NCBI RefSeq assembly: GCF_024713945.1
Contig: NC_134677.1
Span: 1,429,001-1,493,000, forward strand
Source of the DNA: Dermatophagoides farinae
Lineage: Eukaryota > Arthropoda > Arachnida > Sarcoptiformes > Pyroglyphidae
DNA: 64,000 nt
Reading direction: 5' to 3'
Shown: one piece after another, positions 1,283-44,905 of the stretch
How positions within the stretch are numbered: the first letter of the stretch is position 1
Layout: the number at the start of each line of letters is the position of its first letter
The notes under the pieces: generated by a model
Told to the model about the DNA's origin: nothing
The model's database searches: none
The model's input: the letters and a program-made list of their open reading frames with translations, nothing else
Position numbers and translations under genes: made by a program

Positions 1283-4200
1283 ATGAATACTAATACGAAT
1301 GCAAATGAAATTGTTGATTCTTGCTCTAATTGTGAAGATTCGAATAAATTATCCGATACGGTATCGATTCAATCGATTGATTCGATTATGATTTCAACGA
1401 CAACAGGAATGGCCAACACTACATCAACATCGACACCTATTCGTCCTCGTCCAATACTTGCATCGGCATTCAGTTTTGATAGTGGTTATGAAATATCACC
1501 ATTTTCAAATTATTCATTTCAATTTGGCACTGAATCCGTACCAAATACAATATTGACAAATAACAACAACAATAGTATTATGGCTACAAATAGATTATTG
1601 AATCCGATTGTACAAGAAGATTATGAAGGTATTGATGATGAATTAATTTCTATTGATCAACATTTTACACCGATTCATTCACCTGCCACTGTTGAAAATA
1701 TGGCCAATGGACAGATTGATTCATCATCATCATTAATGAATCATTTTTCACAACGTCAACAAGCATTCAATCTTGCCATACAACGACGAGAAAATCGTTT
1801 AATTCAAAATGAAATGGAAATTAATAACAATGATCCGAATTATCCGAATGCTGAGAATCAATATTTTTCTTTTGATGATTTTGGTGATGATGAAGTTTTT
1901 CTTGATAATGAAAATGATGATTCACAACCGGAACGGATAATGGCACGAGAATGGCATCAACCGATACGACCAAGCTGTTCAATGGGAATAATGTACGATA
2001 ATAATGAAATTCAAGATAACAATAATGTTGATGATGAAAATCAAGTACAAATTGATCACAGTTATCGTGAGCCAAATTTAAGCACAACAAGTTCAAGTAC
2101 AAGTCGTTGTTCAAGTGAACCGATTCCAATTCCTGGTGCCCGTAATCGTTATCGTTCATCACCATTATTGGATAATAATGATGATTTGAGTGATTTTTTT
2201 GATGGTACAAGTGCAAGCCATTTTATGGCCGAACAAAATGAACAAGAATTCAGTCTTCCGGATAGCCGTCGAATGCCTTATTTTCATCGAATGGCTCCAC
2301 GATTGCTCAATGATAATAATGATTATCAACGACATCGATTTGGTTCACGATTTCAACTTTCTCTATCAATGATTCAAGATTATCGTGATCATTCTGAATG
2401 TCATTGTTCAACACCATCAACATTGAGAATGCCATCAGGATTCTCATTTCGTTTTGGACATCAATCACCGAATCAAATATTGTATGAATCTCGACGTTTG
2501 TTAACACCATTACCAGAGATGGATGAGGAAAATGATGAAAGTAAGTGCAACATTTTTTTTCATGTTTTATCATTATCTCTCCGTATATACCTGACTACCT
2601 TTGTGGGCCAAATTTTCATTCAAAATTCAGTTATATTTACTATTTGAAAAAGCATAGCGTAAAAAAACGTACTGATAACGTCTACTCTCTTTTCGCGTGC
2701 TACATAACACGCTGACCATGTACACATACACATACACATAATAACTTGTTTACAGTAAGGACCCTTTTTTAGCATACATCGGTCAACATCGTTATTTCAT
2801 TCATTTTTGTTGTTATGATGATTATTTGTAAAGCCTATTGTGTTAATAGAAGGGCCAAAAATTGGGATATTGACCATTTCTATATGGATACCAGAATATA
2901 TTGTATTGTGTTGTGTTGACCACCTGTTAAGGTCAACATTGGTTATCACCGGACACACTTTCTCACGCTTTTTTTCAGATATACTTTTTTTTGTTCACCC
3001 TACATATTAATAGAGTAGCTATAGCCATGTATTGATTTTTTCTTTCAATATTTTTGTTATTGTTGATTGACAATTGTCCACTATTGTTGATCTGCTTTTA
3101 AATTTGAATACACACTCGGTACGTACTGATATGATAACTAGTGATAGAAATAAAAAAAATCCTGGACAGCAACTAAAATTTTACCATAATCGTAATACAG
3201 TTGGTAGGTAGGTAGGTAGGTAGGTAGGTAGGTAGGTAGGTAGATAGTAGGTGTCATATTGGCCAGATATATTGAACAAGCGATGCTACTAGCACTAGAA
3301 AAAAAAAGAATGGAGCTGTCAAATATAATGCTATGTAATAAACTAGGTCAATTTGATATGTACCCATATTAACTATCTAAATATTGATAGATAAGAATGA
3401 TGACCATTATTTTTTAGCTAAACTCTTCTTTTTTTTTATTTTGAATCCTTGAAGATTTGATCAATATAAAAAAAACCGTTGTTGTTGACCTTTATTTCAC
3501 AATCTCATAATAGTTATATTATCTGTCCATCTATTTTTTTTTTTTTTTTTGATTTAATGGTTTTGAGGAAATCTTTCTCAATCACACACACACACACATA
3601 TGTAATGATGAATCGAACGTGTTATTTATTTATTTTTTCGATTATAGAAAATCTAAAATCAAATAAAAGAGCAATGGCTCCTTCCTATGTTTTTTTTTTG
3701 ATGAAAATGTATATTAGTATTTATTTCCCTTCAACGGTTATCTTATATACAATTTTATGTCATTGATTAGTTGGTTGGTTGGTTGGTTGGTTGTTAGGTC
3801 GTTCGGTTGATTGGTGTTGGTAAGCTCGGGTTTTCTTTAACACTGACCTTGAGATGAAAAAAAATATCCAGGCTCAAAAAAATACATATCACATCGACAA
3901 ATATACTATTTGATGATGATGATGATGATTATGGTGATAGTATAAGAGAGAAGGGAGAACTAAAATGAAAAAAAACTGTAATATGTAAGCAACATGTGTG
4001 TGTGTGTGTATGTATGTTTAACATGTCAAAGGTCATTTAATACGGAGAGTAGCAATAGAGAAAAAAAAAGTTTCCCGGGATCAATATTTTTTTTTTTCAT
4101 TGGCTACCATTGACCATCAATGAAAGAGAACAGTGATGATGATGATGATGATGATGATGGTGTAATCACACAAGAAAAAGAGAGAGAGCCCTAAAGGGCA

Positions 4201-4516
4201 ATTGTTCGTGATTTTGGTGTTCAATATATTACACACACTGACAAACTTGAATGAAATTACTGACAGTTATTCAATGAGAGAGAGACCGGGCTTGAAAATA
4301 AAATGGAAAAAAAAACAAAAAAATAATACAAGATGAACGGTATACACACAGTGTTTAATCATCACATAAATATATTCAATAAACGACGTATAGATACAAA
4401 GATGTTAAATAATTTTTTTTTCTTCTAAAATTATACTGGAAGATGAATGGTGAAAAAAAAGTTTCCTGGGCGCCATTATAATAATTATAAATAATTATCT
4501 ATTGATTGATTATTTG

Positions 4517-4547
<31 letters not shown>

Positions 4548-7500
4548 CCGATCACATCTGATTGGTTATTGATGATGATGATGATGATGATGATAGTGTT
4601 TGTGATAATTATATTATATCGATCTGTATACATCATCATCAAAACATTAGTGTTTATAATAATAATCATCATCATAATAACCAACCTTGAGGCAAATCTA
4701 ATTTCTTTCATTTAGTTTAGTTTTGGGTGCACACATACAAACACACACACACATTAATTTAGCTAAATAAAAAAAAAGGTAAACAAGTAGTATTCTGCAT
4801 GGATGATGATGATGATGATGATAATTGCCACTTTTAATTTAGTTAATTTGGTACCGTTTATGGTTGTTGTGGATTTTTTTTTGTTGTTGAAAAAAAAGAT
4901 GTTTCCATGTGAGAAAAATTTACACAAACAAAAAATATTTGATAATTATAAATTACATTTAATAATAATAATGTCTTTGTCTGGGCTTGATGATGATGAT
5001 AATGAAATTGAATATATATGAAACCTAAATATTGAAATCCGATATGAATGATGACATTATTTTTTTTTCTGTCGACCACATTATCATGATGACTAAATTG
5101 TTGTTGTTTTTTTTAACTTGTAAAAATTTTTTTTCCTATTCATTGCATCAATATTACATCATTCAACAAGAAATTCTCTCATTTTTTTGGGAGCCATTTT
5201 TTCTGCTATTTTTAGAATTTATCTGGACCTTTTTTTTCTTTTTGTTCTTTAGCTAGGAGAAAAAAAATCACTTTTTAAAATCCAGCTTATCATGCATCAC
5301 CATCAATGATGTTTCTCTGTGTGTGTGTGTGCGGCCAATGAATTTTCTTATTGAATTTGTGTTTTTGTTTTTTTTTCTATTTGTAAACTTTTATTTTGAA
5401 AGAAAAAACATTCTATGTGTTGATGATGATGATGATCATGAAATTTCAAAATGTTTATGCTTGTTTGCATACAATTGTCTCAAAACACATCATCTAGACT
5501 ACAAACAAACAAAAACAAAAATAAAAATGGATGCGTTTAGTTTTGAATTTTTTCTCTTCATCATTTTTTTTCGGTTCGTTTCGGATGACGCAAACAAGTA
5601 AGAAAATAAATAAATAAATAAATTTAAAAAAATGAAAGAAAACATTGGAAAAAATTCAACTACTGTCTTTCCAATGATGATTTTCGGTTTTGGGTGTGTG
5701 TGTGTGTGTGTGTGGTTATTGCTCTCTCTCTCTCTTTCTCTATCTCTCTCAAAAAAATAATGTCCATATGTTTAAAAAAAAAAACAGAAACGAAATGGTC
5801 ATTTCAGTTTTTTTTTCTGCCATTCATTCGTTCATTCGTTCATCTTTATCGACAAATGTGATGATGAGCTGAGTTGAGAAAGAAAAAAAAACCAAACACT
5901 ATCAAATTTCATAAATTTTAATGATAGTAATCATCAAAGAAACGAAACGAAACGAAAAAAAAAATACATGAAATATGACAATCCTTATTGTGTTGGTATA
6001 TATATATATATATGGAATAAAGCTTGTGATGCAGAAAAAAGGAGAAAATTTTTTTTTTGTACGATGCTTATCTTCCTAGATGATGATGATGATGAATTTT
6101 AAATGATGATTTCATTTTAATAATAGGGTTTTTTTATGATTCATTGAATTCATTGGATTCATTATAGGAAATGTTGTTGCTATTTTTGTCATCATTGTAG
6201 TCAATTCCAATGAATTTCAAATCATTCATTTAATATATTATTTTGTATTTTTTTTTCTGATTAATCGATTGTTTGCGTGTGTTTACACGATGCATATATA
6301 TGTATCGGTTGTTGTTGATCAGATCAATTGAAATGATTAGATTTCAACAACAACAACAACAACGAAAAAGGTGTTGATTCTTTCTGAATCTCTTAGAAAG
6401 ATATATGACCATCATCATGTAGGTGTTTTGATATGACCGAAAAAAAAAGAAAAAATAATGTGTGATAATAATGTTTATCATCTCTTTTTGGGTATTTTGT
6501 CACGATTTTTTCTTCCATTCATTTACCATTATTGAACATTATGATTATTATTTGTTTGAATTTTTTATTCTTTGAATTTTTCATTCTGTGATTGAAGAAT
6601 ATTTCTTATTTTTTTTATGATTTTTAGGATTTTTATTTTTAAATTTGGTCGATTCGATTCACATCCTATTTTGTATATATATTGTGTTTATGTGTATTGA
6701 CATGATGATGATGATGATGATGACTCGTGACCAGACACATACACATACAAATACAAAATTTGATTATCGATGAATGTTGAAATGACTCGTGTCTTACACG
6801 AGACATTGAAAGAAAGATATATATTTTTTTTTCTTACATCGACATTATCAATAAAACACCCGAAACAAAACAAAAAAAGATAGAGAGAGAGAGAGAGAGA
6901 GAGAGCGAAAATTTACCCATAATGTTCACATGAATACTAATGGTTTTTGATCGTTTATTTTTTTTCGTTGATGGTTTTTTTTCTGTTTGTTTGTTATTTA
7001 CACAAAATTTCATTCACAGGTCGCCAAAGGTCGATTCCATTGGTTAGTAAATTTTTTTTTTCTTTTACACTTGTACAAATCATATAGCCAAGAAGAAGAA
7101 GAAGAAGAAAACGAAAAACTAAAATTTTGTTATATTTAAACAACATGATGATGATGAAAAGCCTATTAGATTTGTCTTTTTTTTTGTCAGGTCATGTTGT
7201 GTGTGTGTGTGTGTGTGTTGACATTCGATTTATATCGATTGATGATGATGATGATGCTTTGAGTGTTTTCCTGACTTTTTTTCTGTACCTTCATCATTAT
7301 TACATAATAATCGTTTCGTCAAATCAAACGATGATGTTTGTGTGTGTGTGTGTGTGTGTGTGAGTGAGTGTGTCTAGTGAAACGAATCGTAATTTTGTTT
7401 TTTTTTCCACCAATCATCATCATCATTGAATGAAGAGAAAACTGATTGCTGATGCTAAAGATGATGATGATGATGATGATGATTGGATGTTATCAGAAAT

Positions 7501-10500
7501 ACGGATAGTTAACGATGAAGACTAATTGACAAATAATTAATTTTAACAAAAATGATGATGATGATGATTATTTGAAGCACATTGATTTAACTTGCTTAGT
7601 AATGTATGTTATATGTCAGTGCTGAATATTTATCAATATTTTTTTTGTTGTTTTTTTTAGAAATAAAAAAAAACCTAACAGATCAATCTCTTGTGGTGGT
7701 GGTGGTGTCGTCGCTGTTGTTTAATTTGATTTGATTTGATCACATCGCTTATCGCGTATGATGATTTTAGATGTGAGAATCGTTTTTTTTTTCTTTTGCT
7801 TCAAAATCAGAAGAAAAAAAAACATAAACTCTAGACGGTCAATAACCCATTTGACATTGGACAATGATGACACACGCAACACACACACACATACAATTGA
7901 TTTTTTTTAATCCAACAAAAAAAAACAACGATACCTTTTTTTCTCTTGAATATATATGATTTAATGTCTTAATTGCATTAATTTTTGAATTTTTCATATT
8001 CACAATGATGATGATGTACGGCTTTGTAAAGTGTGAATGATGTGCAATTAAATTTTTTTTTTTTACTTAAAAAGATATCCTCATCCACTGCATCATCATC
8101 ATCATCATCATCATTGCTATTAAGATATTAGAATCCATATTTTTTTTATTATATAATGTGTTTAGCTTTTACACTTTTTTTCTGGGCTATAATCTTGGTT
8201 TTTTTTCTTTGGCTTCAATTTAATTTGTCAATTTTCTTTCTCTCTCTCTCTCTCCCTTTCACCACTGGCAGCCATAGAAGAGAAAAAAAAAGACAAACGA
8301 TGGTCATTATTCCATCATCATTATTATTTACGAGATATTATTTTCTTTTCCATAGTAATCGCGTATAGCATCATCGATATCGTGTATTCTTACTCATACA
8401 CTGACATAAACGTATATTAAAATCTTTTTTTTTCAGGTGTCCTACCATCATCATCATCTTTATCTGTGTGTTCAATATTGATGATGATGATGATGATGAT
8501 GGGTACACATAGCCAGTTGAAGTTGAGTTTTTTTTCTTGTTCTTTTCTCTACTACTAAATGAAAAAAAAAATCTAGAAAGATTGAAAGATTGTTTGATGA
8601 TGATTTTCATCAGAATAGAATTAGGAAAATAAGAAGGAAATGTTTTTGACATGAAGGGCAAGAATCAAAAAAAAAAAAAAAAAAACAAAATCCAGTTTTT
8701 CAGATATGATTATGTGTGTGTGTTTGTGTGTGTGTAAACCAACTGAAAATTGAATTAGTTTTTTTTTGCATCATATAAATGATGAGATATTGACCGTTTG
8801 TTTCTTTACTACATCAAACTCAATTTTATTCAAAGTTTGAGCAAAAAAAAAAAAAAATCAAACAAACAAAAAGAAGAAAAAAAAGACTATGATCGCATGA
8901 CACATTATCGTCAAAAAAAAAAAAAAAAAAAATTGTAAACTTTTTTCCCTTTTTTTCCAGTACAGAAAACAACGACAACAACCTAAACAACGTAAACGTA
9001 AACGATAATTGCTTGACATTTTCATCGGTCATTTGACCGACCTGTCGTATATGTATAATTTTTTTTTTGTTTATCATCAAAATATATAAATTTTCACTGT
9101 ATTTTTTTTTTACTTCTCCTTCCTATCTTTCTTCAAATACACACACACACACACACAGCAGCAGCAGCAACAGCAGCGAAAAAAAAAGAACAAACAACAG
9201 AAAAATGATGATGACGATGATGGAGAATTGGAAAACGAAAAAAAAAGTTGTCATGAGGTTGTCGTTTGTGTGTGTGTATAGCCTATTCTAATTCTGTATT
9301 CATATGAAACGCTACTATTTCATCCCATTCATCATTTAGTTTTTTTTTGTTTTTTTTTCTGGTCCCTGATCAAATCATAAAAGTGTGCTATATAAGTAGT
9401 GATGTGTTGTGTAAATGATGATTGACCACCACCATCACCAGCAAAAAAAGGTCGTCGATTTTTTTTTCATTTCTTTTTTTTAAACAACAACAACAACAAC
9501 ATTTGATAGGCAACCAAATAAAAAAAAGAGATAGAGAGGGCCAAAGGTCATCACATCATCGTTACATCATTATATTCATAAAGTGAAATGAAATAAATAA
9601 AAAAATATGATAATAATAATATCTAGTAACCAGTAGTAGTGTATGTGTGTGTGTGTGTATAGCGTAAATGCAATAATAACAACAACAACAACAACAAAAA
9701 AATTATTGTTTCGAACATCTAACATATCCAAATATATCGTGTCTGTGTGTGTGTGTGTTTGTATCGTTTATAATGATGATGATGATGATGATCACTATGG
9801 CCATCATCACGATGATCAAATCTTGATGATGATGATGATCATCGTCATCCAAAATCATCCTACACTTTTGTTCAATTCGATTTATTTTTTTTTCTATTAC
9901 TTTTATCTTTTTGTAATATCGATTGTCATTATAATCATCATCATCATCAAATGACAGGTTTCTTTTTTTTTCTTTCTCGTTCTCCATTTAACTGATGATG
10001 TTTTTTCAGTTTTGTGATTCTTTATTCACTATTTTTTTTAATAATTGGCCATCAAATCATTATTATGAATGTGTTTCATTATTTCGTTATCTCGTGTGTA
10101 TGTGAAAAAAAGTCCAAGAATGAAAAGTGTGAATATATCGATTATGGTTGGTGTGTTTTCTGTTCGTGTGACCACCAGACAATGTGTATTTATCATGAAT
10201 CACACGATGATGACATCGAAATCATTCGACCGAAACAAAACAAAAAAACATATTCTTATGGTGCTAATTTTAATGTGAATTTTTTTTCATTTTTTTAAAT
10301 TTAAAATAAATTTCTATTTTTATTTTTTTTTCTGGAAGCCACACTCACATGATACATATGATCATTGGTCAGAATGACCAATGGCGCCATAAGTAAAAGG
10401 TGGAGCCATTTGATTCATTAGTTGAAAAATAACAAAAGAAAAAAAAACATAGCTGTACATATGAATGACCAACGTCCATTCAAGCACACACACTCACTAA

Positions 10501-13500
10501 CACATGCTAACATTCCAACCCAATCCATGAATGATTGAAGTAGCCGGAAAAAATTGTTTCTTCCCTCTAAAATACTGATTTTTATATATTACAAAGAGTA
10601 TATATATACATCACAAACGACGCCTTCGTTTATGAATGTATGTGCGCGAATACATTCCATTACGATGATGATGATGATGATGATGATGATGGTTAGTAGA
10701 TAGAAGAAGAAAAAAAAACGCCAACCAACTGCATTTTTTTCCATTCACTTTGGAATGTCTGGAATGAATAAAATGAACTGGCTGGCTGGCTGGCTGCTTG
10801 CCTGCCTATTTGTGTCCAACCTGAATGTATGTATATGGTATTTATGTTTTTCTACGCAACATAACATGTGTCCATTATAGCGCTACCGCTATTTTTATAT
10901 ATCTATAGATAGTTTTATCATCATCATCATCATCAGATTAGGCGTCATATATATATGTAGCCAGAAAAGAACCAGCCTTTTTTTGTCTATTTTTTTCATC
11001 TATGATGATATATAGTGTGTTGATAATTATTTTCTGTTTTTGATAATTAACTTTTTTTTCCGGTTTTTTTTCCGAATTAGATTTAATATTTCCAATGAGT
11101 CTTGATGAACATCATGTTGATGATCATGAAGAACAAACATTTCGAATAATGGAACCAATTATGGAACAATCAATGAATACAAATGAATTTAATGAACAAA
11201 TTATTGTTAATGATTCATCTTCATCATTAAATAATGATGATAATTGTCCATCATCAATGGATGTTGATCTTGTACCATTAATGGATCGTCGTACAAATTC
11301 TTGTGGCCAATGTCTTGATTATCATCATCGTCAACATAATAATAATGATAATGATAATGATGTTGTTGTAAACACAAAAAAAACAATTACTCCATTGCCG
11401 GATGTTGTTTTGACACCAAGATTAGCTGCTAATCGTTCAAACAATGAACATCATCAACGCAATACATTACTCTCTTTCCATGAAGTGCCTTATCATCATG
11501 AAAATGGTGGAAACGATTCTTTTAGTCATAATCATCATCATCATTCAAATGAACGACGAACAATGTCCGTTTCATTACCAATTGATCAGGAAACAATCAC
11601 AGAAATTGGTCGAGAATTACGGCAAATTTCATATGAATTTCATATGTTACAGGTTAGTGATGGTGAAAAAAAAACAAAATTATTTTATTATTCAATTTTT
11701 GTAAAGAAAATTTAAAAAAAAACGATTATTGTTTCGGGCGTGTGTGTGTGTGTGTGTGTGGATGTGGATAAACACATCCTAAACTCCTACGCCTAAAACA
11801 TTAAGAAATTATTCTCAATTTTTTTTTCGACAATTCGACAGCTAAAATGAATTCATTTTAGCCAACGATAAATTTACACCAGACATACGTACACACACAC
11901 ACACATTGAATATTATGATGGATTATGGCTGATGGTAATCTACCGTATCTTACATCAATCCATTTACCATTATATCTAGCTGTCAAAAAAAAAAAATTTT
12001 TTTTATTTACAATTTTCATATGCTGCCAACACATCTCGGTTTTCATGATCATCATCATGATCATGAAGATGTGATAATTTCATTGGCCATTTTCATTCGA
12101 TGTTATGATTAATGTCAGCTTTAGCTGAAAAAAAAAATTCTATAAAGATTTTCAACAACAACAACAACAACAATAAAAAAAAATCTAACCGTAAAATCTG
12201 ATTGAATATAATGACTGAAAAAAAGCTACATACACACAAATCTTGTACACTTGAATAGCCTCCATCATTATTGAATCATCGTAGCTTGTGTTGTTTGAGG
12301 TTTTTTTTCCTTCAAAATTTTTTTTTTATCAGAATAAATATCATCATCATCATGATGGTGATCATGATCATCACTACTCATCCATCATGTATTTTTTTTC
12401 GTGGATGTGTCGTCCTCTCTCTTTCTCTCTCTTGATTAACGCTACTGTGATTGTCCCATAAAGCTTTTTTTTCTGCTTCCATCATTTTTTTTTTGATTTC
12501 AGGCAAAAAAAAAAAATCTTCACGCTGGCAAAAACACCATTTTTCCATCTTCTATCAAGAGTTATATAAGTTCTTTTTCTATTCTAATAGAAAGATGATG
12601 ATGATGATGATGATGATCTTGATTGGATTTCAATTTGTTAGCCTCGTTCTTGTGTCTCGAAAGATTTGTTGATGGTTGGTTGGTTTATGGTTTTTTTTCT
12701 TGTCTTTGTGTGTGTGTGATATCAATATTTGTATTCGTTTTCTCTCTCTTTCTTCATCATTTCATCAACAACAACAACAACAACAACATTGAAAATTTTA
12801 GCCAAATCCAAATGTATGTACATGGTAGTTTCCAAAAAAAAAGACAAATATTTTCTATTTACCCAATATATATTTTTATATACCAGAAAATACAATCTTT
12901 TTATGTTTACATTTTTTTTGTTTGTTTGTTTGTTATGATATTTGTTGTCCATTTATGTTACCGATATGCTTTTGTATGTGTCATTTTGTGTGTTTTGAAT
13001 GATAATTTTGTTTTTATCTTTCTTTTTTTTCTGTTCAGTCAAATAAATATATAGATGGCCCATATATTTAACAGCGGTTTTTTTTGCCACCAACAACATC
13101 ATCAAAAAACCTGGATCGAATAAAAAAAAAAAAAAAAAAATACAATAGACATGACCTTTTTTTTGATTTTGAATGTGTATGCGTGCGTATACAATCGGTA
13201 GTTGATTATTTGGGCTAAGATCCGGGAAAAAATAAAGAGAGAGAGAGAGAAAGGAAAATTATTTTACACGTGCAGACTTTATAATAAAAACATCTTTTCA
13301 CCGGGAATTTTTACATTCCAATGGATGCTTATAATAATAACGGTGATGATGATGATGATGTTTATTTGATGAAAATATTTTACCAAACATACCGTTATAT
13401 TTTTGTCCGGGATTTTATTTTTTTTTAACCCTCATCATCAATGAAAATCTGGGTGAAGGGCACATTTTTTTCTCTCTTTATTTATAATGGCATTTTTCCC

Positions 13501-16500
13501 ATTATTATAACTTAACCTTTCATCTTTATATATTGGAATAGATCATGAAACATTTAATACTAGTTAGATCTAGATGTGTTTGTTTCGTCATCATCATCAT
13601 CATCATATTTTTTTCTGGTAATAAAAAAAAAATACTAGCTGATGGTGATGCTTATGAAAACTTTCCAATATTGCTATCGATGTTGAATGATGGGTCTCTT
13701 GTAATCTGCGCCTGACCTGTAGGTCAAGATAATATTCAGAAAAAAAATTGTCCTTATAAACAGCGGTGTATAAAAATACGGTTCATTTCTATCATGATAA
13801 CAAACATACATACATACAATACATAGATGACAACTGTGACCCAAAACTATTAGTGAAATCAACAATACCAATATATACAGTATTTGATATACATCACAAT
13901 AACAACAGCCAACAACAACAATAGCCATATGCTCTCGTGCAATCATTTTTATATTCAATTCATTTTCATAGCTATGAACTTTCGCTCTCGTTTTTTTTTT
14001 CCAAATTTCAATTTCAAATGAAAATCTTTTAGCTATTATTACTTTAGTAAAATGTGTTTGTTTGTCACATCTCCAACAATACATATAAAAGATCAAAAGA
14101 AGGGGAAAAAATCAAAGATTGGACTGGGAAAGAGCGAGAGTGGAAAAAATCCGTTACAAACGATTGATTTTATTTTCTGCTTTACTTTTTTTTGGATCGT
14201 TGAATTTTTTCGAATGCTAAACTTTTAATATTGCGTGGGAATGTTTTTCTTGTGCTTTTTATTTGGCATCGATTGATCGTTTGATTTTGTTTGGTCGATA
14301 TGTAGAGGTTGACTATAGGTAGGAAGGAGAAAAAAATCATTATTTAGCAATCAGCTGGTCTCTGTCATGAAATTTTCTTTTTTTTTCGGGTCCCGAATAA
14401 AAGTATCGAAGGAAGGTAGTTGATATTAAGCGAAACAAATTTCGTTTCCATTTTTTTCTTCTTTTTCGCCTCTTTACTCGTGTATGTGTGTGTGTGTTTG
14501 TTTGTTGAATCATACTGGTCACAAATTATGTGCTAAATTTAATAGAATTAGAAGCCGGATTTCTTCAACAACGTGCATGCAACGAAGAAAAAACTTGCAT
14601 CTTGTGTCATAGGTCACAAAAAAAACTACAACATGAACATTATGGTTGATTGATGATGATGATCAGAAGCATCTTAAAAAGATGCTAACTGAATTAGTGT
14701 TTTTTTTAATTAGTTTTATCATTTGAAAAATCATCATCATCATCATCATGTACAAAATTATTGATGCTACACGAAAAAAATATCATGTTTTTGTATAACA
14801 ACAACAACAACAACAACACCCTCACAATTAACCCCGGCATTAAGAAAAAAAATCAATATCAGAAGCGATCTGTGGTTGTTGTTTGTTGTTGTTGTTGTTG
14901 TTTTTTTTTATTTTCACATTACCATTATTATCATCATCATGAGAATAGAGAATTCATAGATTACAATTGAATGAAGGTAAAATCTACATCAACAATAATT
15001 TATTTTCAACAACAACAAATATAACAAATGATCATCATCATCAATAATGGATCAGAATTATTATTATTTAAAGAATAAATAAGAAAAAAGAAAATCATCA
15101 TTTGTTCAAGTTGCCTAAAATGATGACTAGTTGTTTGTGTGTGTGTGTGTATTTGAAAATTATCTTCAAATAATAATAATGATGATGATGATCTTGATAT
15201 CTATATGCTTCGTATCTTCACGATGATGATGATGATGATGATGAGATGTGAGAGTGAGAGAGGGGACATACCCTTTTGACCTTTTGTGTATAGTGTATGT
15301 GTGTTTATATTTTGTAACCAATATTCACAATTTGCCTCACACACACACACAGACACATCATCTATACAGCTAACACTTGAATGATGATTATCACATAACC
15401 ATTGGCGTTGATGATGATGATGATTATCATACCCATCCATGTTATTATATTATCATCAGAATGATGATGATGGCGTCTATGGTGCCTATTTTTTTTAATA
15501 ACATTGAACAGATCAAATTCGATTTGATTTGATTCGATCTGATTTTTTATTTTTTATTTTTGATACCAGTTTTTGTTGATGATCAAGATCATCATCATGT
15601 TGTTTTGTTATATCGTAATATTTACCTTTTTTTTGCTGTTAGTTGTTAGGTGGATAACACAAATTATCCATTGTCTCTATTATGTGTTTGCAAATCCAAA
15701 TACATGGCCACTATCATCATGATGGTTGATCATCATCATGATCATATGATTTTGGTTGTATAGTAAAGTCTTTTAGGTCAACACATTATCTCTTTTTTTT
15801 TGCTTATCATTCGAATTTGAATTGATGTTTAGAACATTTTCTATGAACAACACAGTAAACAGTTATAGCCCTCTCTCTCTCTCTCTCTCGATCATCATAA
15901 TCATCATTGGAATATAATTATTATTCGTTTTAGGGTATTAAACAAAAAAAAAATCAATGCTTGTGTGTGTGTATATTGGGCTTCTGGGTGAATATAATGC
16001 ATATGATTTGATTCCTGATGCTGTTTAGTTTGTGTATGAGTGAATGAATGAAAGATGCTGAGTGATGATTGTGTCCATTTTTCGTTTATTCGTTAGTTTT
16101 TTTTTTCGTCCATTCGATTTGTCCGGGATTTTTTTTCCTTCATTTTTTTTCTTTTTTTTTATATTCATCTTCTTCAATCTTTGTAGTTTTAATTTTTTTT
16201 TATTTTTTTTTGTTGTTGTTGTTGTTGCTTGCCTTTTCTGGTCCCGGGAATAGTAATAACATTGCTTACAACATACAACCAACCAACTAAGTCAGGCTGC
16301 TGCTTTTGAATGAAATCAGAATGAACTGAATAATATGATTGACTGAGAGTGAGTGAGTGAGTGAATGAATGACTTGATTGAGAATCGAAACGATTGTCGA
16401 TTGTGCATCATTTTGAATGATGATGAATGTCAATGATTTTTTTTTCTATTTATTTCATTCTTCTCTACTTATTACTCCCTCATCTTTTTTTTTTTTGCTA

Positions 16501-17880
16501 TTTATTGATGGTCAGTCAATGAAAAAAAGAGAGGATGAAAAAAAAATTGTGAAAGATTTTCAGTTCATTTTTAGTGTGTGTGTGTGTGACCTCTGTGTCC
16601 ACTGTTTCTTTTTTTTTTGTTTCTTTTTATCATTTTTTTTATTTTTATTCTCTTTATGATTCGTACATTGTGAGCATAGAGAATGGTAAATTGAAAATTC
16701 AATAAAAATAAACAATCAGTTTGTTTTGTTTTGTTTTTTTTTTGATCAAATGATCATTCATCGATATGCATACGGATGTTTAATGTGTTTTTTTTTGTTG
16801 TTGTTGAAAAGCAAATTCTGATTGATCACACACACACACACACACAAAAACACGCAACTAGAAAAAAAAGAAACTTTTTTTTTGTAGCAATAATAATTTA
16901 ATCGATTGATCGATTTATATTTCAATTTAAATTGTTCAATTCAGGCAAACAAACAAAACAAAAAAAAATACAGAGATTTTATCATTTGAACTTTGACCGA
17001 AAAGAAAAATACAAAAATTATGTTCTAGACATTTTTTCTTTTTTTTTGGCCAATTTTTCATCATCATCATCAGTATTTTGTCACCAGAAAAAAAAATAGT
17101 TGCAATTTTTTTTTCTTGGTTACAAATAATGAAATTCGATATGACCACTACCACTTGTTTAGATCAATAATGATCATCTGGTTTTTCTATCTCTTTTCTA
17201 CTCAAATGTTGATGATATAAAGCTTATCTTCTTTTTTTTTGTTAGAATAAATCGAAATTCGTGCACGTGGTCCATACATACACAAATACAAGTCTGGCAC
17301 ACTTTACTTGTTTTTTTTTTTTGGTTCGTTTGTTTATTTGTTTGTTTTGTTCAAACAGACCACAGATAGTATTCATTCTATAGTGAGAGACCAGAATTAC
17401 TCAAAATAATCTTTGCATATATATATATTTTATTGATCATTTTGTCATTTGATCCATTTTAAATTATGCGTTTTGCATCATGATTTTGAACTTTGTTCCA
17501 GACTAATTTTTCTTCTTTTTTTTGCATTTTTTTCTATCCACACACACACATAGATTCAACGATCAATAAATTTGGCCCAGATGACTCGTAGCCAAACAGA
17601 TGGATCAGTCAATAATCAACAACAGCAGCCAAATAATATTGCCATCAATATTATTCGTTTAATGTTGGAATTATTGACATTTACATCATCATCATCATCA
17701 TCATCGTCATCTGCAGAAAATTCCACCAATCAAATTGATCCAACGTCATCGATTTTTACAATAAATAATTCCATTTTTTATACCGGATCATCATTGAATC
17801 AATCACCATCATCATCATCAACACAAAATTCTGCCACCACATTGAATGATGATGGAAATGATGAAATGAAATTTTGCTGA
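1283..17880 (+). CDS. BIM-like BH3-only candidate protein, three exons
   Basis: Exons are 1283-2540, 11081-11652 and 17554-17880. Splicing is phase 1 then phase 0 with donors GTAAGT and GTTAGT, and the spliced frame gives 718 residues. The ATG is the first after an in-frame stop at 1271. Most of the protein is disordered and rich in Ser, Asn, Asp and His. At about residues 592-610, at the end of exon 2, lies ITEIGRELRQISYEFHMLQ. Its core IGRELRQISYEF lines up with the BH3 helix of vertebrate BIM (IAQELRRIGDEF): the four hydrophobic positions I, L, I, F and the Glu before F are kept, Gly is Ser and the usual Asp is Tyr. Exon 3 adds RSQTD, resembling a dynein light chain (LC8) motif, and a hydrophobic stretch INIIRLMLELLTF (about 641-653), placed like the C-terminal membrane segment of BIM. 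By family, such proteins bind BCL-2 relatives at mitochondria to start apoptosis; that role is inference. Similarity outside the motif was not recognised. Confidence 0.7.
3203..3243. repeat. (GGTA)n microsatellite
   Basis: About ten uninterrupted copies of the tetranucleotide GGTA/TAGG, inside intron 1 of the BH3-like gene. The motif differs from the CA and GAT types that dominate the window. Confidence 0.95.
4521..4547. repeat. (TGAT)n microsatellite
   Basis: A tetranucleotide tract of nearly seven copies inside intron 1 of the BH3-like gene. It is followed at once by a (GAT)n block near 4570-4593. Confidence 0.9.
11653..17553 (+). other. intron 2 of the BH3-like gene (5.9 kb)
   Basis: The second long intron has donor GTTAGT and an acceptor TAG after a (CA)n run. 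It is filled with (GT)n, (GAT)n, (CAA)n and poly-A/T tracts, and a (CT)n run near 15872-15889. An antisense open frame of about 136-140 codons (13674-14096) with several Cys and one hydrophobic stretch lies inside it; see the findings. Confidence 0.75.
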
Positions 17881-23713: not shown

Positions 23714-26700
23714 TCAATTTGTCCAGATCATTGTTTTAGGTTTTTGAAAATGTTTGTTTGATTCACATAGGATACGATTAGTAACAAGATCTACAGTATA
23801 TACCGATTCAGTGGCAGTGATTGATAGGATCCGATTTTTTTCCGATAATGCCATTCCACGATGATAACTAAATATAGAAAAAAAATCAATATGAATCGAT
23901 TTTATGATTACGCATTTTGAATCGACTTACCCTTCAGTTGGTCTTCCTATTCCTGAGATTAATTCCACATGGCCATCAATCAATGACAAATAAAGTAGAT
24001 CTTCACGATTCGGTGTTGCCGATGCTAATATCAGATCATAGTTACCATTTTTCCATACAAACAAACAATTTACAATATCCAATGATGTACGAACATCATA
24101 CATAAATTCAATTCCATTATCATTAATCTTCTGTACAATAATTGTACTTGTATTTGTTGCCATTGTATTAGTATTTGTGGTTCTTGTTGTTTTTCTCGAT
24201 GATGATGAAGATGATCGATACTGTGATGGACATAATGTTGTTGTTCCAGTTTCATCATGTTGACATTGTGTTGAATTAGCAAAATCATGATATATACTAA
24301 CCAGATAACGATGATCCGGTGATAGATAACTTTTATGTGCATTCAAATGTGAATTATGCAATAATATTGCATCAGTAACTTGATCTAAAATTAATTGCCC
24401 ATTCAATTGATGTGTGATCGGTGTCTGGCATTGTACGGCCAATAATCCACCAGCTTTCCTGGTAATTATTGATGCAGCAATCGGTTGACAATCATTCAAT
24501 CGTATCGAATGTATATATTCCAATTGATTGATTGAAATTTTTATCAATGACCGTTCTTCCCAATGCGTTGCATATGCATATGGTGAATCATGCATGACCT
24601 TTTTCATACGTTTATTATATTCATTTTTGAATATCGATTCATAATGTTCAGGAATGAAAAAATCATATACCAAATCAAAATGACCATCAACCGGTTGTAA
24701 ATGTATGACATCAATATGATGATGCATTAAAGATTGAACCTGTGGTGATTGTTGTTGCTGCGATGATGATTGTTTTCCCGGTGATGAGGATAATGGTGAA
24801 CTACCTGCATCATGCATTAATCGAATAACTTGAATAGTTTTACGATTTTTTCGATATTTTTCGTTCAGATAATCAAATTTACTGCCAACCGATGAGGATG
24901 AGGAAACAGAATAATCACCCAAATCTTTCCATTCAGATTCAATCAAATCTTTTGGTATATTCGATGATCGTTGTTCATCATTATTATAATAATTATAATC
25001 ATTATTATTATTATTGCCATCACAAAGAACCCATATCTGTGGATCTTTTCCCATTTCGGATGATTCTACAATACGAAGGCGTCTTGGTTGAGGATCGGTG
25101 GCAATCACCTGAACAATAGATAATTGTAATTCATGTAAAACAAGTATACGATTTAGATTTGGTTGAGCAATATAGATTAAACCATTTAATTGTACAATAT
25201 CTTCACTCCAATCACATTGTATCATTGTTGTTGATGATGATGAGGATGATTGATCATTATTATTATAACCATTACCACAAAGTGTTAAACTATTTTGATA
25301 GATTATATCTCTTGCATCAATTTCATGAATAGTTTGACCACAGATACCTTTTATATTAGATAGAGATCAAAGACATTAATTCAACCGGAAAATAAATCAA
25401 TAAATCAATCGATTTACCTTCATAAATGGTCAATCCATTGGCATGAAAAATCCATAAACGTTGTGGATGTGAATCATAAATATCTGCTGATGATTCTACC
25501 GATTCATCTTGCACTAATAATGATGCAACACTTTGTCCAAATGCACCATTTTTATGTGTTATACGACATGTATATGCACCCGTATCGAATTTGTTCTAAT
25601 GCAGCCACTTGTAATAATGTACCATTATTTATAATGGTCACTTTTGGTCCATCAATCAATTGTTCATCATTTTTAAACCAATGGACCGTAAAATCATCTT
25701 CAAATGTCTCGAAACGACATTCAAAACTTGCTACGCCACCAATAGGTGTCCATTGAAATCTTGGTGATACTTCAACAATTGGATCGACTATAATTTTTGT
25801 AATTTGAATCATAAAAAATGAATAAATAAATCTAAATATTTGATAAACATACCGATTACATCAACAATATGTGTCTGTTTGACCGTTGGATTATTAACCG
25901 CTTGACAGGAATAATTACCAGAAAACGATAATTTCAAATCCGTTAGATAAAGTGATCCATCATTGAAAACCTTAATATATGGTAAATTTAATGTGGCCAA
26001 ATCGACACCATGACGATACCATTTAATGGCCGGTTTCTGTGGTTCACCATTTATATCGCAACGAATTTCAACATTATCACCTAGATGTGCTTCAATCTTA
26101 TTGATGGCTAAACTTTCATCCAATGTAACCATTGATACGCCTATGGTTTTTTTTTTATATAAAAAGATTTAATATCAGCAATTGATGAAAAAAGAGATTA
26201 CTTACTAAACAATTTATTGAATGCAGCTTGAAATTCTGTATAATCAAGTTTATCATCATCATCAACATCTTCATGTTGCATTAGATCTGTGAGAAGACAT
26301 ACAGAATCTGGTGACTAAAATTCGAAAGAAAAACGATTAACAATTCTTTGTTCATGGCAATTTTAATATTATATTATCATTATATACCTTATAAATCATT
26401 GAATGTTTCCATAATTCATTCAATGTAATCTGGCCATCAGAATTTTCATCCAATCTTGTAAATAATAATGATACATCATTTACTATTTATCGAAAAAAGA
26501 TGAAAAAGATAATACACCACCAACAACAAAAAAAAACAACATCAGTCGAAATAGGCAAGAAAATTATTATTATTAGCGAAAAAAAAAATCAAAATCATTG
26601 AAGTGAGAAAAAATGAATTTTTTTTTGTTTGTTTGTTTGTTTGTTCGATACATACTTTTTTCCAATATTTTTTCCTTCATTAGATCATATTGTTTAGGTC

Positions 26701-32367: not shown

Positions 32368-35300
32368 TTATGAAGGTTGATCAAATCGCCATTGTTGTGT
32401 TGAACTACCAGCATTACATTGATCAACAATAATACCCGTTTGTCGTACAAAACGTGAATCTAAACAAAGATTATGTGATAATAATTTTATATGACGATCA
32501 AATGCCCAGACCCATTTCTAGAAAAAAGGAAAAAAAAAGATAAAAAGAGTCAGAATATATTTCAATGTGATTATTATGAAAATTTTTCTCTTGAATTTTC
32601 AATGAAAGATTTATGCAATTTTTCACAGTAAATCTTGTTAGCACACACACACATACACACAAAAGTATGAGGAAGACGGCCAAAAACTTACCTGAGTATC
32701 ATCACCAATACATTCAGAAAGTATTATCGATCTTGATGGTTCAAATCCGGTAACAGTAATACAAAGATGATTATCATGTTTTATTAGATGATCAATAGTG
32801 AATGACCAATCTTGATTTGCACCTTGTCCATGACATTGATATAATGATAAATGATCAAAATTCTTCGTTTCACCCATTGTATCTAGACATTGATCAATTT
32901 GTCTTAGGGCACCATGTTTATCCAATGATAATGTATTATCGTCGTCTGGTCCATTCATTATATTCATTCCGCCATCGGGCATTTTTAATTCTGGATAAAC
33001 ATTTTTCATATACCAATCAAATGATTTACAATGCAATTTTTGTCTTAAAGCTTTTCGTTCACTAATATCACCAAATGATACATATTGTGCTGGTGGATTT
33101 GCATTATAATAAAATTTTTTATATTCATCCATCCAAACTTCAGCTGCTCGACGTGTATTATGTACGAATACAACACCACTACCACCGGGAAAATCATATG
33201 GATGTCTATGTTTCAATGTATTGTGGTGTATATAAAAGTGGATGGAATAATTTACAATCAATTTTTTTTCCTGGAACACAACTTACTGTTTACGAAAAAC
33301 ATGACCAACATGGCTACAGGGTATGATTTCAAGACCATCGGCACATAACCACATTCGAAAGGATATCTCTAGATTTTCACCACCCTTTATCAAACGATGA
33401 GGGGAAGAGAGAAATTCAAATTGATCGTTATGAATAATTTAAACATTTTTTCAATTCAAAATGTATACAAAACTTCATGTAAGTGTGTGTGTGACTATGA
33501 ATATTAATTTGGAATAAATTTAAAAATTTTTTCTTCAAGTTTTTCTCAAAAAGAAAATTGTTTTTATTTAATGAATGAATTTCTCTTCAATTTTGTCTCA
33601 AAAATTCATTCGTCAAATTGATTCACACAAGAATGAATTCATTTAAATTAACAAAAAAAAAAAAATTTAACCCTTCCGGAAAATCATCATAATCATCATG
33701 TTTTCTTTTTCGAAATTAACAAAAAAAAAATCATTCATCCATTCAAAAATCTACATGTTTGATTCGTTTATTACAATTACATGTAATAATATTCCAATTT
33801 AAACGACAAAAGACAATATAACAATGGCAATAAAATGACAATAATGATAAAAAACATGCATGCAAGATAAATATGATGACATATATAAAATTTATTATAC
33901 TTACCCAAATATTCATTTGTGGATCATATTTTCCATAATATTCAAATGTAGTTTTATTTATGGAAAATAGGCCGCCGGCAATCATTGGTGTTCTTGTAAT
34001 GGACGATATAAATGAATGAACAAACAGAAAATGAAAATTCATGATGCCAAAGAGAATAAAAAGAATAGCAATTAATCAAACACAAAGGAATTTTGTTTTT
34101 TTCTTTTGGACAACAAATATACATGACATGGCAACAATTCATTCATTTTTGAATAAACTCACTTTATTGGTGCTGTTTGATCCAGTAAACGTTTCTGATG
34201 AATAGCTGGAGGTAATATTTCCCATTTAAATACTAGATTCCAATCGAAACCACCACGAAGATCCATTGATGCAGCAATATAACGAAAATCATCTAATGCT
34301 ATCACATCTATCACAGGCGATACGACTAGTAATGGATTCTGCGAACGTATGTTATGTAATTAATAAGAATTTGAATTTGAAAAAAAATCAAAACAAAAGA
34401 AAATCACCTGTTTAACACGTTCCAACAATGGTTCTAACCATTGTTGATTACATTCACAATGACTATCTAAAAATGTTAATATCGGTCCACGAGCAGCATC
34501 GGCACCACGTATTCTGGATCGTACTAAACCTTCACGTTTTTCATTACGTATCAAACGTACTTTCGGTATTTTCTCCAATTCACGGCCATCACATGGATCA
34601 TCACTATGATCATCGACTAATATAATTTCCGTTATTAATCTTGATGGTGAACGATTAAATACGGAAACAATTGTGCGTAATAATGTTGATCTTGCTTCAT
34701 TATGATAGGTAATTATAATCGATGTCGGTGGTAATTCATCAATATTATAATGTTTACTTTGACAATGATAATGTCTTGTATCGATTATTGAACGATCCGG
34801 TGATAATGAATCACTTGCTTTTTGATTGAATTTATTTTTTAAATATGGATCCATATTAGCTTTGATTGCATTTTTCATCAGATAATCAACAAGATCAAAT
34901 TCAGAGCCAAGATTTTGATATGTTTTAGCTTGTTGTGGTAGAAATTCTGATTTTGATATCTGAAAATTTAGGTTGGTCATCGTTGTTGTTGTTGTTGCCG
35001 TTGTTAAGCTATCATTCATTTGTTGTTGATGAACACTGTAATCCTTTTCATGAAAATAAAAATGAAAAAAAACAAATTAAATCATTCAATTATCAAAAAA
35101 AAAAAAAAAAAAAAAAAAAAATAAAATAAACAACGTGGGCAGCAATGAATGACGAACTAGAAAAAAGGTCAAAAAAGGCAATAAACGAGAGACAAAAAAC
35201 GGTAAACCCAAAAAAAGGTTTTCAACCTGTTTTTTTCCTTTCAATTCGGGATTTTTTTTCCATCATCCAGATTAAGTCCTAGACATTTATTGTTATGATT

Positions 35301-40500: not shown

Positions 40501-42863
40501 ACAGCATTTAACTTACTTGAAGATATACAGAATGGTGATAGCAAAATAATAAAAAATAAACTTGATAACCGGAGTACCGGGTATCAGTCAATGAGAGAAA
40601 GATAGAGAGAGAGAGAAAAAGAGTGAGGTAGGTATGTATGTATTCTCCACAACGATTCAATGGCAACGACATTGAACGCTTAACATATATCGGTATAACC
40701 CTTGAAAAATTCACCATCAACACTTGGTGTTCATCTTTTTAGTAAAAAAACGTTCATGCCAAATGATGATAAAAAAAGCCAGTTAGGAAAAGAGAAAATT
40801 TTTCTTCTTCTGTAAATGAAAAATAAAAAAAAAACCCGAACAATTATAAAGAGAAGAAAAACGGCAATGATCGTTTCAACAAAATACCCCTGCTGCTGAT
40901 GTTGCTGCTGTGGCCAAATCACCCTCTGGATGGATAATTTTCAGGTTTTTGCCTTTAAATGTTTAGTGGTCATCATCATCATCATGGTCGTCCAACTTAA
41001 AAGGGAGTGAAAAAAAGTTGACCAAATCAAAGAGCAGCAGTGGCAGTCATCAAACAATAACCGAAAAATAAGGAAAAAACATTAATGTCCGAATCGGTTC
41101 AATTTGTTTCACACCACGGGAAAAAAACTTACGTTCGATCGCTCGACGTGAATGATGTAAATGGCGCCATTTTTTTTTTAGTTCCCCAATCATAGACAAT
41201 CGAATGTATCAATTGAATTGATCCTCTTTTTTTTGGCTTTCGCATTAATTTTCTTTCAAAAGTAAATAATGGAAAAAAACTTTTTTCGAAACCAGACGAA
41301 GCACAGCATTCTTTCAATATATTCAAAGGTCAAATAGCCTCGTAGTCGTCGAGACAATATGAATTTTTCACCCACATAATATGAGAGATTATCATTACCA
41401 TAATAATAATAATAACCGTCATCATCACCCATTTTTTCGCTGGTGTTTATGATTGTCACTTGTGATTTTTTTGTTATAATTCTTTTAAAAAAAACTGATA
41501 ATTATAATGACATATATTACGTTGCGTCTGTATCAAAAAAAAATACACATTGTGAATAATTATATTTCGCGTATATATATGAATAGGTCATGAATTGTTC
41601 ATCATCATCATCATCATCATCACCATATGATTATTATTTATGCAACAAACAAACAAGTTTCAACGTTCATCATCTCGAAGATGTATTTAAATAATAACTA
41701 TAAAATGATGATGATGATGATGATGATGAAAACTTGTGAGGGATAAATAAAGGAATTTTTTTCTTTATAAAATTCGAATTGTCATTTTAACAAAAGGGGC
41801 TGTTCAAAGATGAAGATAACTTATTAGTTTGGTTGTATATGAAAAAAAAAACAATGCCAAATTTTAAAACAATTTTTATCATTCGTGAGGTGAAATCAAA
41901 TTCAAATTCAATAATAATAATAACAACAATAACAATCAAAATCATTATCGGATTCCATAAATCTTGAATGTTGTTGTTGTTGTCATCGTTGTTGTTGTTG
42001 TTGTTTTTGTTGTTGTCACACTTGAGAAATTTATCATTGTATTATTTCATTTATATTTTTTTATGATGATGATGATGATGAAACCAGACGACCGAATTTT
42101 TTCATTCTATAATGCAAAATAATCTCATGTGAATAGAAATGTTATTTTTGGGTGCCTAAAATGAACCAAAAAAAATATATAATAGAAAACAATGATGACG
42201 GTATTACCCATTCTTTTTTGATTTGATTTTATTTATTTCTAAAGATAAAATTCTTTTCTATTTTTCTCTCACACCAGATCATGATGATGATGATGATGAT
42301 GATGGACATGGCAACACATCGCACACACTTGTGAATAATTTTCATGATACATTCATCATCATCATCGTTAAATGATTTACAATGATGATGATGGCAATGG
42401 CAATGGCAATGAAATATTCATCATCATCAACATCATCGTGTGACATATATTTCATGAAATTCGAAACTTGGAAATTGTCGACAACAACAGCAATATAATA
42501 ATAATAAGATTAAGACAAGAAAAAAAATAATTCGATAAGAATACGCGGAAAACAATTGTATGGGAAAATTTATTTAAAAAACATTGAACGGTAAACTTTT
42601 AACGATTCTTGTTTTGGTTATTTTTTTTTTGTTTGAGTGAAAAAATTAAATTTTTTTTTGTTCGTTTTATTTCTCTAGTCGCCTTTTTTTCCTATTCCTG
42701 TCCACATATATACAAAAAAACTTGCTGTTCAACCTTGTGTGTGTGTGCTCATCGTTTCGTTTCGTTTCCCAGCAATCAACAATCATCGGGAAAATACAAA
42801 AGATAATTTTAACAAAAAAATTTTCAATTTGAAAAAGAAAACAAAAACAAAAAAAAAATTATT
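37548..42863. other. intergenic region between divergent GALNT and Lys-rich genes
   Basis: This is 5.3 kb with no convincing full gene. It contains (GAT)n and (CA)n tracts, a perfect DRE-like TATCGATA at 39481-39488, the palindrome ATGGCGCCAT at 41161-41170, and a minus-strand GTAAGT donor at 41132 that would end a short possible first exon (MAPFTSFTSSDR). Minus-strand frames between 40311 and 40922 are probably chance. A long (CAA)/(GTT) tract lies near 41969-42020. Confidence 0.5.
39481..39488. promoter_or_regulatory. DRE-like TATCGATA site
   Basis: A perfect 8-bp TATCGATA palindrome, the core of the arthropod DNA replication-related element. It lies about 1.9 kb upstream of the GALNT start and could be accidental in AT-rich DNA. 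Confidence 0.25.
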
Positions 42864-44905
42864 ATGAATAATAAGAATTCAACAAAAAACAAAATGGCTA
42901 GAAATACAAAAAATGTTGCCGATAAAAGTTTGAAGAAAAAAACACAACCAACAGCAACAACTACTGTAGCGGCAGCAACAAAACCGGATATGAGTAAAAA
43001 ACAAAGCACAAAAAACTCGAAACAAGATAATGATAAATATAAAACAATTAAACAACAACAACAGCAGCAACAGCAACAGCATCAACAAAATTTTTCGACA
43101 AAAAAATCCAAAGATAGTGCTTCTATCAAGAATCGAAAAGATAAAAGTTATAAGAAATCAAAAACAGAAAGTATAAAAAAGAAAAAACCGGATAAACCAA
43201 AACCTAAAATGGTATCAACAAAACAACAGGATACTGTGGAAAAATCATCAGGATCAGCTAAACCTATTGAAACAACAACGGTTAAACAAAAATCTGAAGG
43301 AAAACCAGCACCACCACCAACACCACCACAAGAAATTACAAATAAAAGTGGTAAAAGTAGTAAAAAAGATAAATCAACAAAAGTACCGAAAGATCAATCG
43401 GCACAAACTAAACAACAACAGCAGCAACAGCAACAACCGCCGAAATCATCTGAAGAATCATCCGGTATTGAACAACCATCTTCTGATTATGATGATGCAA
43501 AAGAAATGTCAACATCAACAGCAACGCCACCAACACCTCCGAAAACGACAGAAGAAACAATCGCAACAGCGACAACAACAACAACAAAACAAGAATCCAC
43601 ACCACCAACACCGCCGACACCACCACCACCACCACCCACACCGGTTACGGAAAAAGTTGAAGAAAAATCAAAAAAATCTGATAAGAAAAAGAAACAGGAC
43701 GAAGAAAATGATGATGATGAAGCGAGTAAAAATGATGATGAAAAACATGGCAATGAATCTGAACAAGAAAATGAATCACAAACAACACAAGCTAATGAAT
43801 CCAATGGTAATGATAATGACGATGATGATGATGATGATGCATCATCATCAACAGAAGATGTTGGTTCAGATCAATCACAAAATGATTCTGATGATGATAA
43901 TGATGTTTCTACAAGTAAAAAGAAAGAAAAAAGCAACAATACAACAACAACAACAACAATAAAAGTGAAAACAGCCGAATCTGAACAATTGGAATCAACT
44001 AAACCAACTATTAATCAACAATTGAAACCGAAAAAAGGCTGTAGCCCTACCATTGGTACTAGTGAAAGGATTACAAAAGTTGAATTTGAATCATTAAATG
44101 ATGAGGTGAAAAAAAAACAAACAAACAAACACACGTTTTTTCTCATTCTAATTATCATTTTTTTTTGTTTTCGTTTTTAATTATTTCAATAGATAAATGA
44201 ACTAAATTCTGGTGTAAATACATTAAAACATTCATATGGTAGTATAATTAAATCGTTGATTGCAATGCAAAATAAACGATTATTGAAGAAAAAAATTGCC
44301 AAACAACAACAACAACAACAACATCATCATCAACAAATGACAACAACATTAGGTGATGTGAAAAAGATTAATTTTTTGACAACATTATCAACAATGGATC
44401 CAAAACAAAAAGAAGAGATGTCAGAATCATCATCATCAAATAATGATAAATTTAATATTGAAAATTTTCTTAATCCAATTACACGTGAGAATACATTCCA
44501 GATGTTATTTAATGAGGTTTGTTTGTTTGTTTATTTTCATGAATGAATTAATGAAGATTTCACATTAAATTAATTATCATATAAATAACTAATTTGTATT
44601 TTTTTTTCTGTAGGTTGAAGATTTGAATAAACGTACTGAACATTTACGTACAAATTTCTATGATCGTCGTGGAAATTTTCTTCGTGCTAAATATGATCAA
44701 TCTGATTATCATTTGGATAGAAAAAAATTTAATCATTTAAAATTATGGGTAAGTTGTGTGTTGGAGTTGATTATATTATATTCTAATATGTTTCTCATTT
44801 CTCAATCCGAAAAAAAAAATTTAGACTAAAAATCTATTGTCAATTGTCAATGAATTAGCTCGTAATTATAATGATGATTTACTCAACATGTTTCGTTTGG
44901 TTTAA
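42864..44905 (+). CDS. unrecognised Lys/Pro/Gln-rich protein with conserved-looking C-terminus
   Basis: Exons are 42864-44105, 44193-44516, 44614-44748 and 44825-44905. All junctions are phase 0, with donors GTGAAA, GTTTGT and GTAAGT, giving 593 residues. The first 400 residues are low-complexity: Lys/Ser/Thr-rich blocks, Gln runs (near 62-70 and 185-192), a Pro-rich TPPTPPTPPPPPPTP stretch (about 245-260) and acidic Asp/Glu runs. From about residue 400 the composition changes to ordinary, with a likely coiled coil (INELNSGVNTLKHSYGSI) and helical segments FNIENFLNPITRENTFQMLF, VEDLNKRTEHLRTNF and KNLLSIVNELARNYNDDLL. The intron-rich, less repetitive C-terminus suggests that this part carries the function. 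The many Lys clusters would suit a nuclear or chromatin protein. I recognise no family. Confidence 0.75.

Follow-up and report, generated by a model that had tools for sequence, protein, structure and literature searches.

The 64,000-nt window of Dermatophagoides farinae contig NC_134677.1 analysed here contains a predicted gene that raises the question of whether mites possess a BH3-only protein. To our knowledge arthropods have yielded few BH3-only triggers so far, and none of the titles among the literature matches listed concerned a chelicerate BH3-only protein. A sequence-only reading of the window had proposed that the gene encodes a BIM-like BH3-only protein. Position numbers refer to the window unless G000 or an L-numbered locus is named, and scans of the mite's own genome covered the 62.4 Mb assembly (22 contigs).

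Table 1. Positions of the candidate gene, its predicted features and the BCL-2 family matches in the mite genome.
Feature	Position	Strand	Details
Exon 1	1283..2540	+	Residues 1-419 and first base of codon 420; Ser/Asn/Asp-rich; codon log-odds 0.355
Exon 2	11081..11652	+	Residues 420-610; mostly low-confidence; BH3-like helix at its end; codon log-odds 0.321
Amphipathic helix QETITEIGRELRQISYEFHML	11587..11649	+	Residues 589-609; AlphaFold2, mid-helix block pLDDT 94
BH3-like core IGRELRQISYEF	11605..11640	+	Residues 595-606; Tyr604 at usual Asp position
Exon 3	17554..17880	+	Residues 611-718, then stop TGA; phase 0; codon log-odds 0.282
RSQTD, loose dynein-light-chain-like match	17587..17601	+	Between motif and tail; weak
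Hydrophobic tail helix NIAINIIRLMLELLTF	17635..17682	+	Residues 638-653; AlphaFold2 helix 638-654, block pLDDT 82
L001, BCL-XL-like	G000:C2:7554344-7554637	-	Closest to BCL-XL, E 2.8e-19
L002, BAX-like	G000:C6:1751905-1752189	-	Closest to BAX, E 4.4e-11; BH3 IGRDLKAISEEF

Three exons on the forward strand are predicted to encode 718 residues (Table 1), with splice phases that agree across both junctions (1 and 0). Both donors are near consensus (AAA/GTAAGT after position 2540 and CAG/GTTAGT after 11652), and the acceptors read GAATTAG/A before 11081 and CACATAG/A before 17554. Codon log-odds were scored in frame 0 (reference median 0.21 from 36 training ORFs), and all three exons were coding-like in the joined frame, whereas reading through the exon 2 donor into a retained intron gave -0.07. 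Against short non-coding frames, the opening 35 codons of exon 3 outscored 99.3% of 2,618 and the closing 30 codons of exon 2 outscored 97.2% of 3,463. The spliced frame described in the sequence-only reading was reproduced in this way, and the three-exon coding model stands up as an in silico prediction. Exon 1 matched no Pfam family, with just two weak matches far under the cut-off, and a search for paralogues in the mite's own genome returned only two exons of the gene itself. The forward-strand introns (2541-11080, 8.5 kb; 11653-17553, 5.9 kb) are rich in simple repeats in this 62 Mb genome, no supported gene from the ORF list lies inside either, and a CA-rich stretch stands immediately upstream of the exon 3 acceptor.

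The BH3-like core at the end of exon 2 retains the four hydrophobic contacts HP1-HP4 (I595, L599, I602 and F606, with Leu at HP2) as well as a small residue, Ser603, ahead of the acid position. Our recount agrees with the earlier claim that seven of the twelve BIM core positions are kept together with these four contacts. That account had not included the residue at AC1 (position 3f), where the core has Tyr604 and neither Asp nor another acid. The BH3 Asp is described as absolutely conserved (PMC7022251) and the Asp at 3f as strictly conserved (PMC4072508), while Asn or Gln is reported to be tolerated there, with Tyr not among the residues named in that report (PMC9171138). A canonical BH3 pattern with D or E had no match across the 718 residues, and a relaxed pattern had one, at the site of residues 595-606. 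Because Tyr604 takes the place of the acid, we did not file the core as a canonical BH3; the candidate probably works like a BH3 without the canonical motif. Arg600 corresponds to a BIM Arg with reported extra BAX contacts (PMC9171138), a match in sequence that at most hints at an activator as opposed to a sensitiser role.

AlphaFold2 was run without an alignment and on exons 2 and 3 separately, so that its models report helix propensity and not fold. The motif helix was the sole helix in the exon 2 model, in which 121 of 190 residues had pLDDT < 50, and residues 589-606 had the highest hydrophobic moment among all 18-mers of the protein. Besides its one long helix, the exon 3 model had two short strands and a helical turn of three residues (55 of 108 residues with pLDDT < 50). 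No 15-mer of the protein is more hydrophobic than the one in this long helix (Kyte-Doolittle 1.83, compared with 1.53 for the BIM tail); the helix begins 31 residues past the core, where a hydrophobic segment had been placed some 30-40 residues on, and is followed by 65 further residues. The disorder previously ascribed to the flanks was also recovered, with a chain that is mostly of low, disorder-like confidence (pLDDT < 50) outside the two helices. Together with the lack of any BCL-2 match in the pieces scanned, this gives the protein a BH3-only-like layout. A classic membrane span was rejected for the tail, whose hydrophobic stretch runs to just ~15-16 residues and contains Arg and Glu, which makes an amphipathic anchor likelier. 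A loose dynein light chain pattern had two matches in the 718 residues, NQVQID at 253 and TRSQTD at 621, to which no statistical weight attaches.

To judge the strength of the likeness, the core was compared with 13 reference BH3s, with per-reference values left raw and chance expectations calculated for an assumed proteome of 5.5 million residues; 12,530 predicted proteins are given for a dust mite (PMC6493757). The best of the 13 was the BH3 of the mite's own L002 (8 of 12 identical, BLOSUM 39, 0.05 chance matches expected per proteome), and human BAD was also matched at 8 of 12 positions (BLOSUM 38, 0.15 expected). Human BIM was matched at 7 of 12 (BLOSUM 32, P ~4e-7 per site), for which 2.3 matches would be expected per proteome, and on these figures the BIM match alone does not exceed chance. 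The remaining ten BH3s had 2 to 5 residues in common with the core. Two candidate models were set aside, the human BAX BH3 (3 of 12 only) and the BH3 of L001 (BLOSUM 14, equalled by 68 background sites). In a profile of 12 BH3s from which the mite BH3 was left out, the core scored 20.4 bits (0.3 expected per proteome) despite a cost of 3.1 bits for Tyr604, and the genuine BH3 of L002 scored lower at 18.9 bits. In a real background of six-frame ORFs (60 residues or longer), none of the 109,392 sites reached 20.4 bits. The best background site, at 19.6 bits, lay in an unrelated cysteine-rich ORF (FGRNCRRIGDDF; L012:4528-4842, reverse strand), and for this reason we take the chance figures from the independence model as optimistic. 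This ORF, Kazal-like by appearance only, is a strong chance match and a useful false positive.

The core was found through its likeness to BIM, and conditional on that likeness the match to L002 had a P value of 6e-4, or 4.7e-5 over the eight positions outside the hydrophobic contacts. Over a 20-residue span the L002 match was ordinary (some 9 expected in a proteome) and the match to BMF improved to 0.13 expected; the flank C-terminal to the core was closest to BMF (P 1.3e-4, best of 13). A 35-residue query with the L002 BH3 against the mite's own genome retrieved L002 alone and not the candidate, which indicates that the likeness between the two is too short to show in a whole-genome search.

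L001 and L002 were the two BCL-2 matches above the Pfam cut-off in the mite genome, and L002 also has a C-terminal hydrophobic tail exon ending QTVFYWLGSAAIVMFMYKKIFNY. Aligned to BCL-XL, the BH1 region of L001 reads QWNH where BCL-XL has NWGR, replacing with His the Arg that is described as the partner of the BH3 Asp (PMC12811263, PMC7022251). The BH3 of L001 itself has Lys in place of Asp, and L002 retains the Arg (TRER) and has Glu at the Asp position of its BH3. With Lys, Glu and Tyr in L001, L002 and the candidate, respectively, none of the three mite segments carries the Asp, which softens the objection raised by Tyr604 and does not remove it. The genome also has five caspase matches, two of which share a reading frame, and a single NB-ARC match. 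Tick Bcl-2 and Bax homologues are reported to bind one another through BH3 (PMC8336254), which supports a functional groove in chelicerates.

Comparison with known BH3 proteins placed the candidate close to several of them in different parts. The BH3 of L002 resembles the candidate in its core and in having no Asp; it differs in lying within a BCL-2-fold protein, and its flank is unlike that of the candidate (P 0.75). The human BAD BH3 (YGRELRRMSDEF, confirmed in PDB chain 1g5j_B) is similar in its core, but Asp is kept in BAD and the flank is again unlike (P 0.97). BIM resembles the candidate in carrying a hydrophobic amphipathic helix after its BH3, and the alignment of the BIM tail to that of the mite outdid 99.2% of shuffles; BIM differs in keeping the Asp and in a flank that is ordinary against the candidate (P 0.06). 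BIM is also far shorter, with its tail helix as its C terminus, and BAD is not known to have a tail helix of this kind. BMF has the flank most similar to that of the candidate (HRLHVQQ against HMLQIQR, C-terminal to the core), but its core matches at 5 of 12 positions and its tail does not align with that of the mite (P 0.25). The BIM and BMF segments aligned with the mite segment better than 99.95% and 99.85% of shuffles, respectively. The core of Caenorhabditis elegans EGL-1, a short protein, also matches at 5 of 12 positions (I-G, L and E-F in common), although EGL-1 keeps the Asp. A BH3-only protein is already known from an insect, Drosophila sayonara (CG14044), which is reported to act via BCL-2 homologues and which belongs to the coiled-coil family PTHR21974, is limited to one fly group and, unlike the candidate, keeps L-X3-G-D (PMC10107002).

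In sequence terms no vertebrate family leads throughout, as the core is closest to L002 and BAD, the flank to BMF and the tail to BIM. Of the BIM-like BH3-only protein originally proposed, the BH3-only-like architecture and its partner genes were retained, but the identification with BIM was not: we rejected BIM as the best label since the L002 BH3 and BAD match the core better, Tyr stands in for Asp, and the Pfam Bim BH3 model, put forward as a check, gave nothing. No BH3 family, including Bclx_interact (PF08945), had a match at E <= 10 in any of the three exons or in the spliced segment. The PF08945 search across the mite genome was also empty, but it picked up no control and is thus uninformative. 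A phmmer search of the PDB with the segment found no match at E <= 10, and none of the pattern matches in bacterial genomes (77) or viral contigs (3) was confirmed by tblastn, as expected for an animal gene.

Several explanations can be set against these observations. The helix may be an ordinary amphipathic one in a disordered protein with another function, such as docking or dimerising, whose BH3 likeness arose by chance and was found by looking; this is the main rival, and we regard it as possible, if on the unlikely side. BH3 motifs are short and degenerate, about two BIM-like sites of this quality would be expected per proteome, the unrelated cysteine-rich ORF comes within reach of the candidate's score, and the hallmark Asp is absent; consensus patterns for BH3 are moreover reported to have little or no predictive value (PMC9171138). 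A coincidence of this kind would nevertheless have to extend to the L002 likeness, which is rare per proteome and remains so given the BIM likeness, and to a motif that forms the only predicted helix of exon 2 and is then followed by a hydrophobic helix.

Descent from a common ancestor with vertebrate BIM, BMF or BAD, the mite protein having been lengthened by low-complexity insertion, appears improbable. The BAD core, the BMF flank and the alignments of the BIM tail and of the BIM and BMF segments all speak for it, and the candidate BH3-only proteins reported from echinoderms are long (350 and 373 residues) and disordered (PMC8998228). Against this, no one family fits core, flank and tail together, with the BMF tail failing to align, and Pfam finds nothing in the pieces scanned at E <= 10. 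Most BH3-only proteins are held to be unrelated by descent, and descent is no likelier than convergence here because sayonara shows a BH3 newly arisen in a fly protein (PMC10107002). A wrong gene model, in which exon 2 or 3 is part of a different transcript and the motif and tail never occur in one protein, is very improbable; it could draw on the length of the introns and the CA-rich stretch at the last acceptor, but has to contend with the matching phases, the near-consensus donors and codon usage that is coding-like in all three joined exons and not in the retained intron.

On the gene structure, motif, predicted helices and partner genes, each of them observed in silico, we incline to the reading that the gene product works as a BH3-only protein, long, mostly disordered and BH3-only-like. 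We infer that the gene is expressed and that its product binds a groove, is anchored at a membrane and promotes killing. Helix 589-609 would fold on contact with its partner and occupy the hydrophobic groove of the BCL-XL-like L001, freeing the BAX-like effector L002; alternatively, it may make direct contact with L002. Membrane attachment, presumably at the mitochondrial outer membrane, would fall to the hydrophobic helix 638-653. With Tyr in the motif helix and His in the L001 groove, the usual Asp-Arg salt bridge would go unused. A more far-reaching and doubtful suggestion is that the BH3-groove code was rewired on both sides in the mite lineage, with groove Arg changed to His and BH3 Asp to Lys, Glu or Tyr, and that the 718-residue disordered Tyr protein sets off a complete BCL-XL/BAX pathway as its chelicerate BH3-only trigger.

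Gene loss is described as having reduced the BCL-2 systems of fly and worm (PMC8998228, PMC7022251). The candidate may be the trigger so far missing from the cell-death pathway of the mite, and the presence of BCL-XL-like and BAX-like proteins alongside a candidate BH3-only protein in one mite genome would point to survival of the three-part pathway in chelicerates. Were a BH3 to function without its Asp, the rule behind most searches would need revising, and this could explain why genes of this kind are overlooked.

Other features were observed in the window and genome. A 455-residue low-complexity ORF rich in Lys, Thr, Pro and acids (42813-44180, forward strand), with a second frame partly open (261 residues), had no Pfam match. 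Immunoglobulin domain matches were observed in two ORFs (25555-26168, reverse strand), one under the curated cut-off. Glycosyl transferase family 2 and ricin-type lectin exons (32641-35076, reverse strand) probably form a GalNAc-transferase gene, and a Sodium/hydrogen exchanger exon was observed at 57993-59237 on the reverse strand (E 5.3e-64). A relative of the group-2 mite allergens, which matched a Der p 2 chain at E 1.6e-30, points to a mite and probably an astigmatid one, and the Der p 2/Der f 2 lipid-binding family had seven matches in the mite genome, at L005-L008 and three other places.
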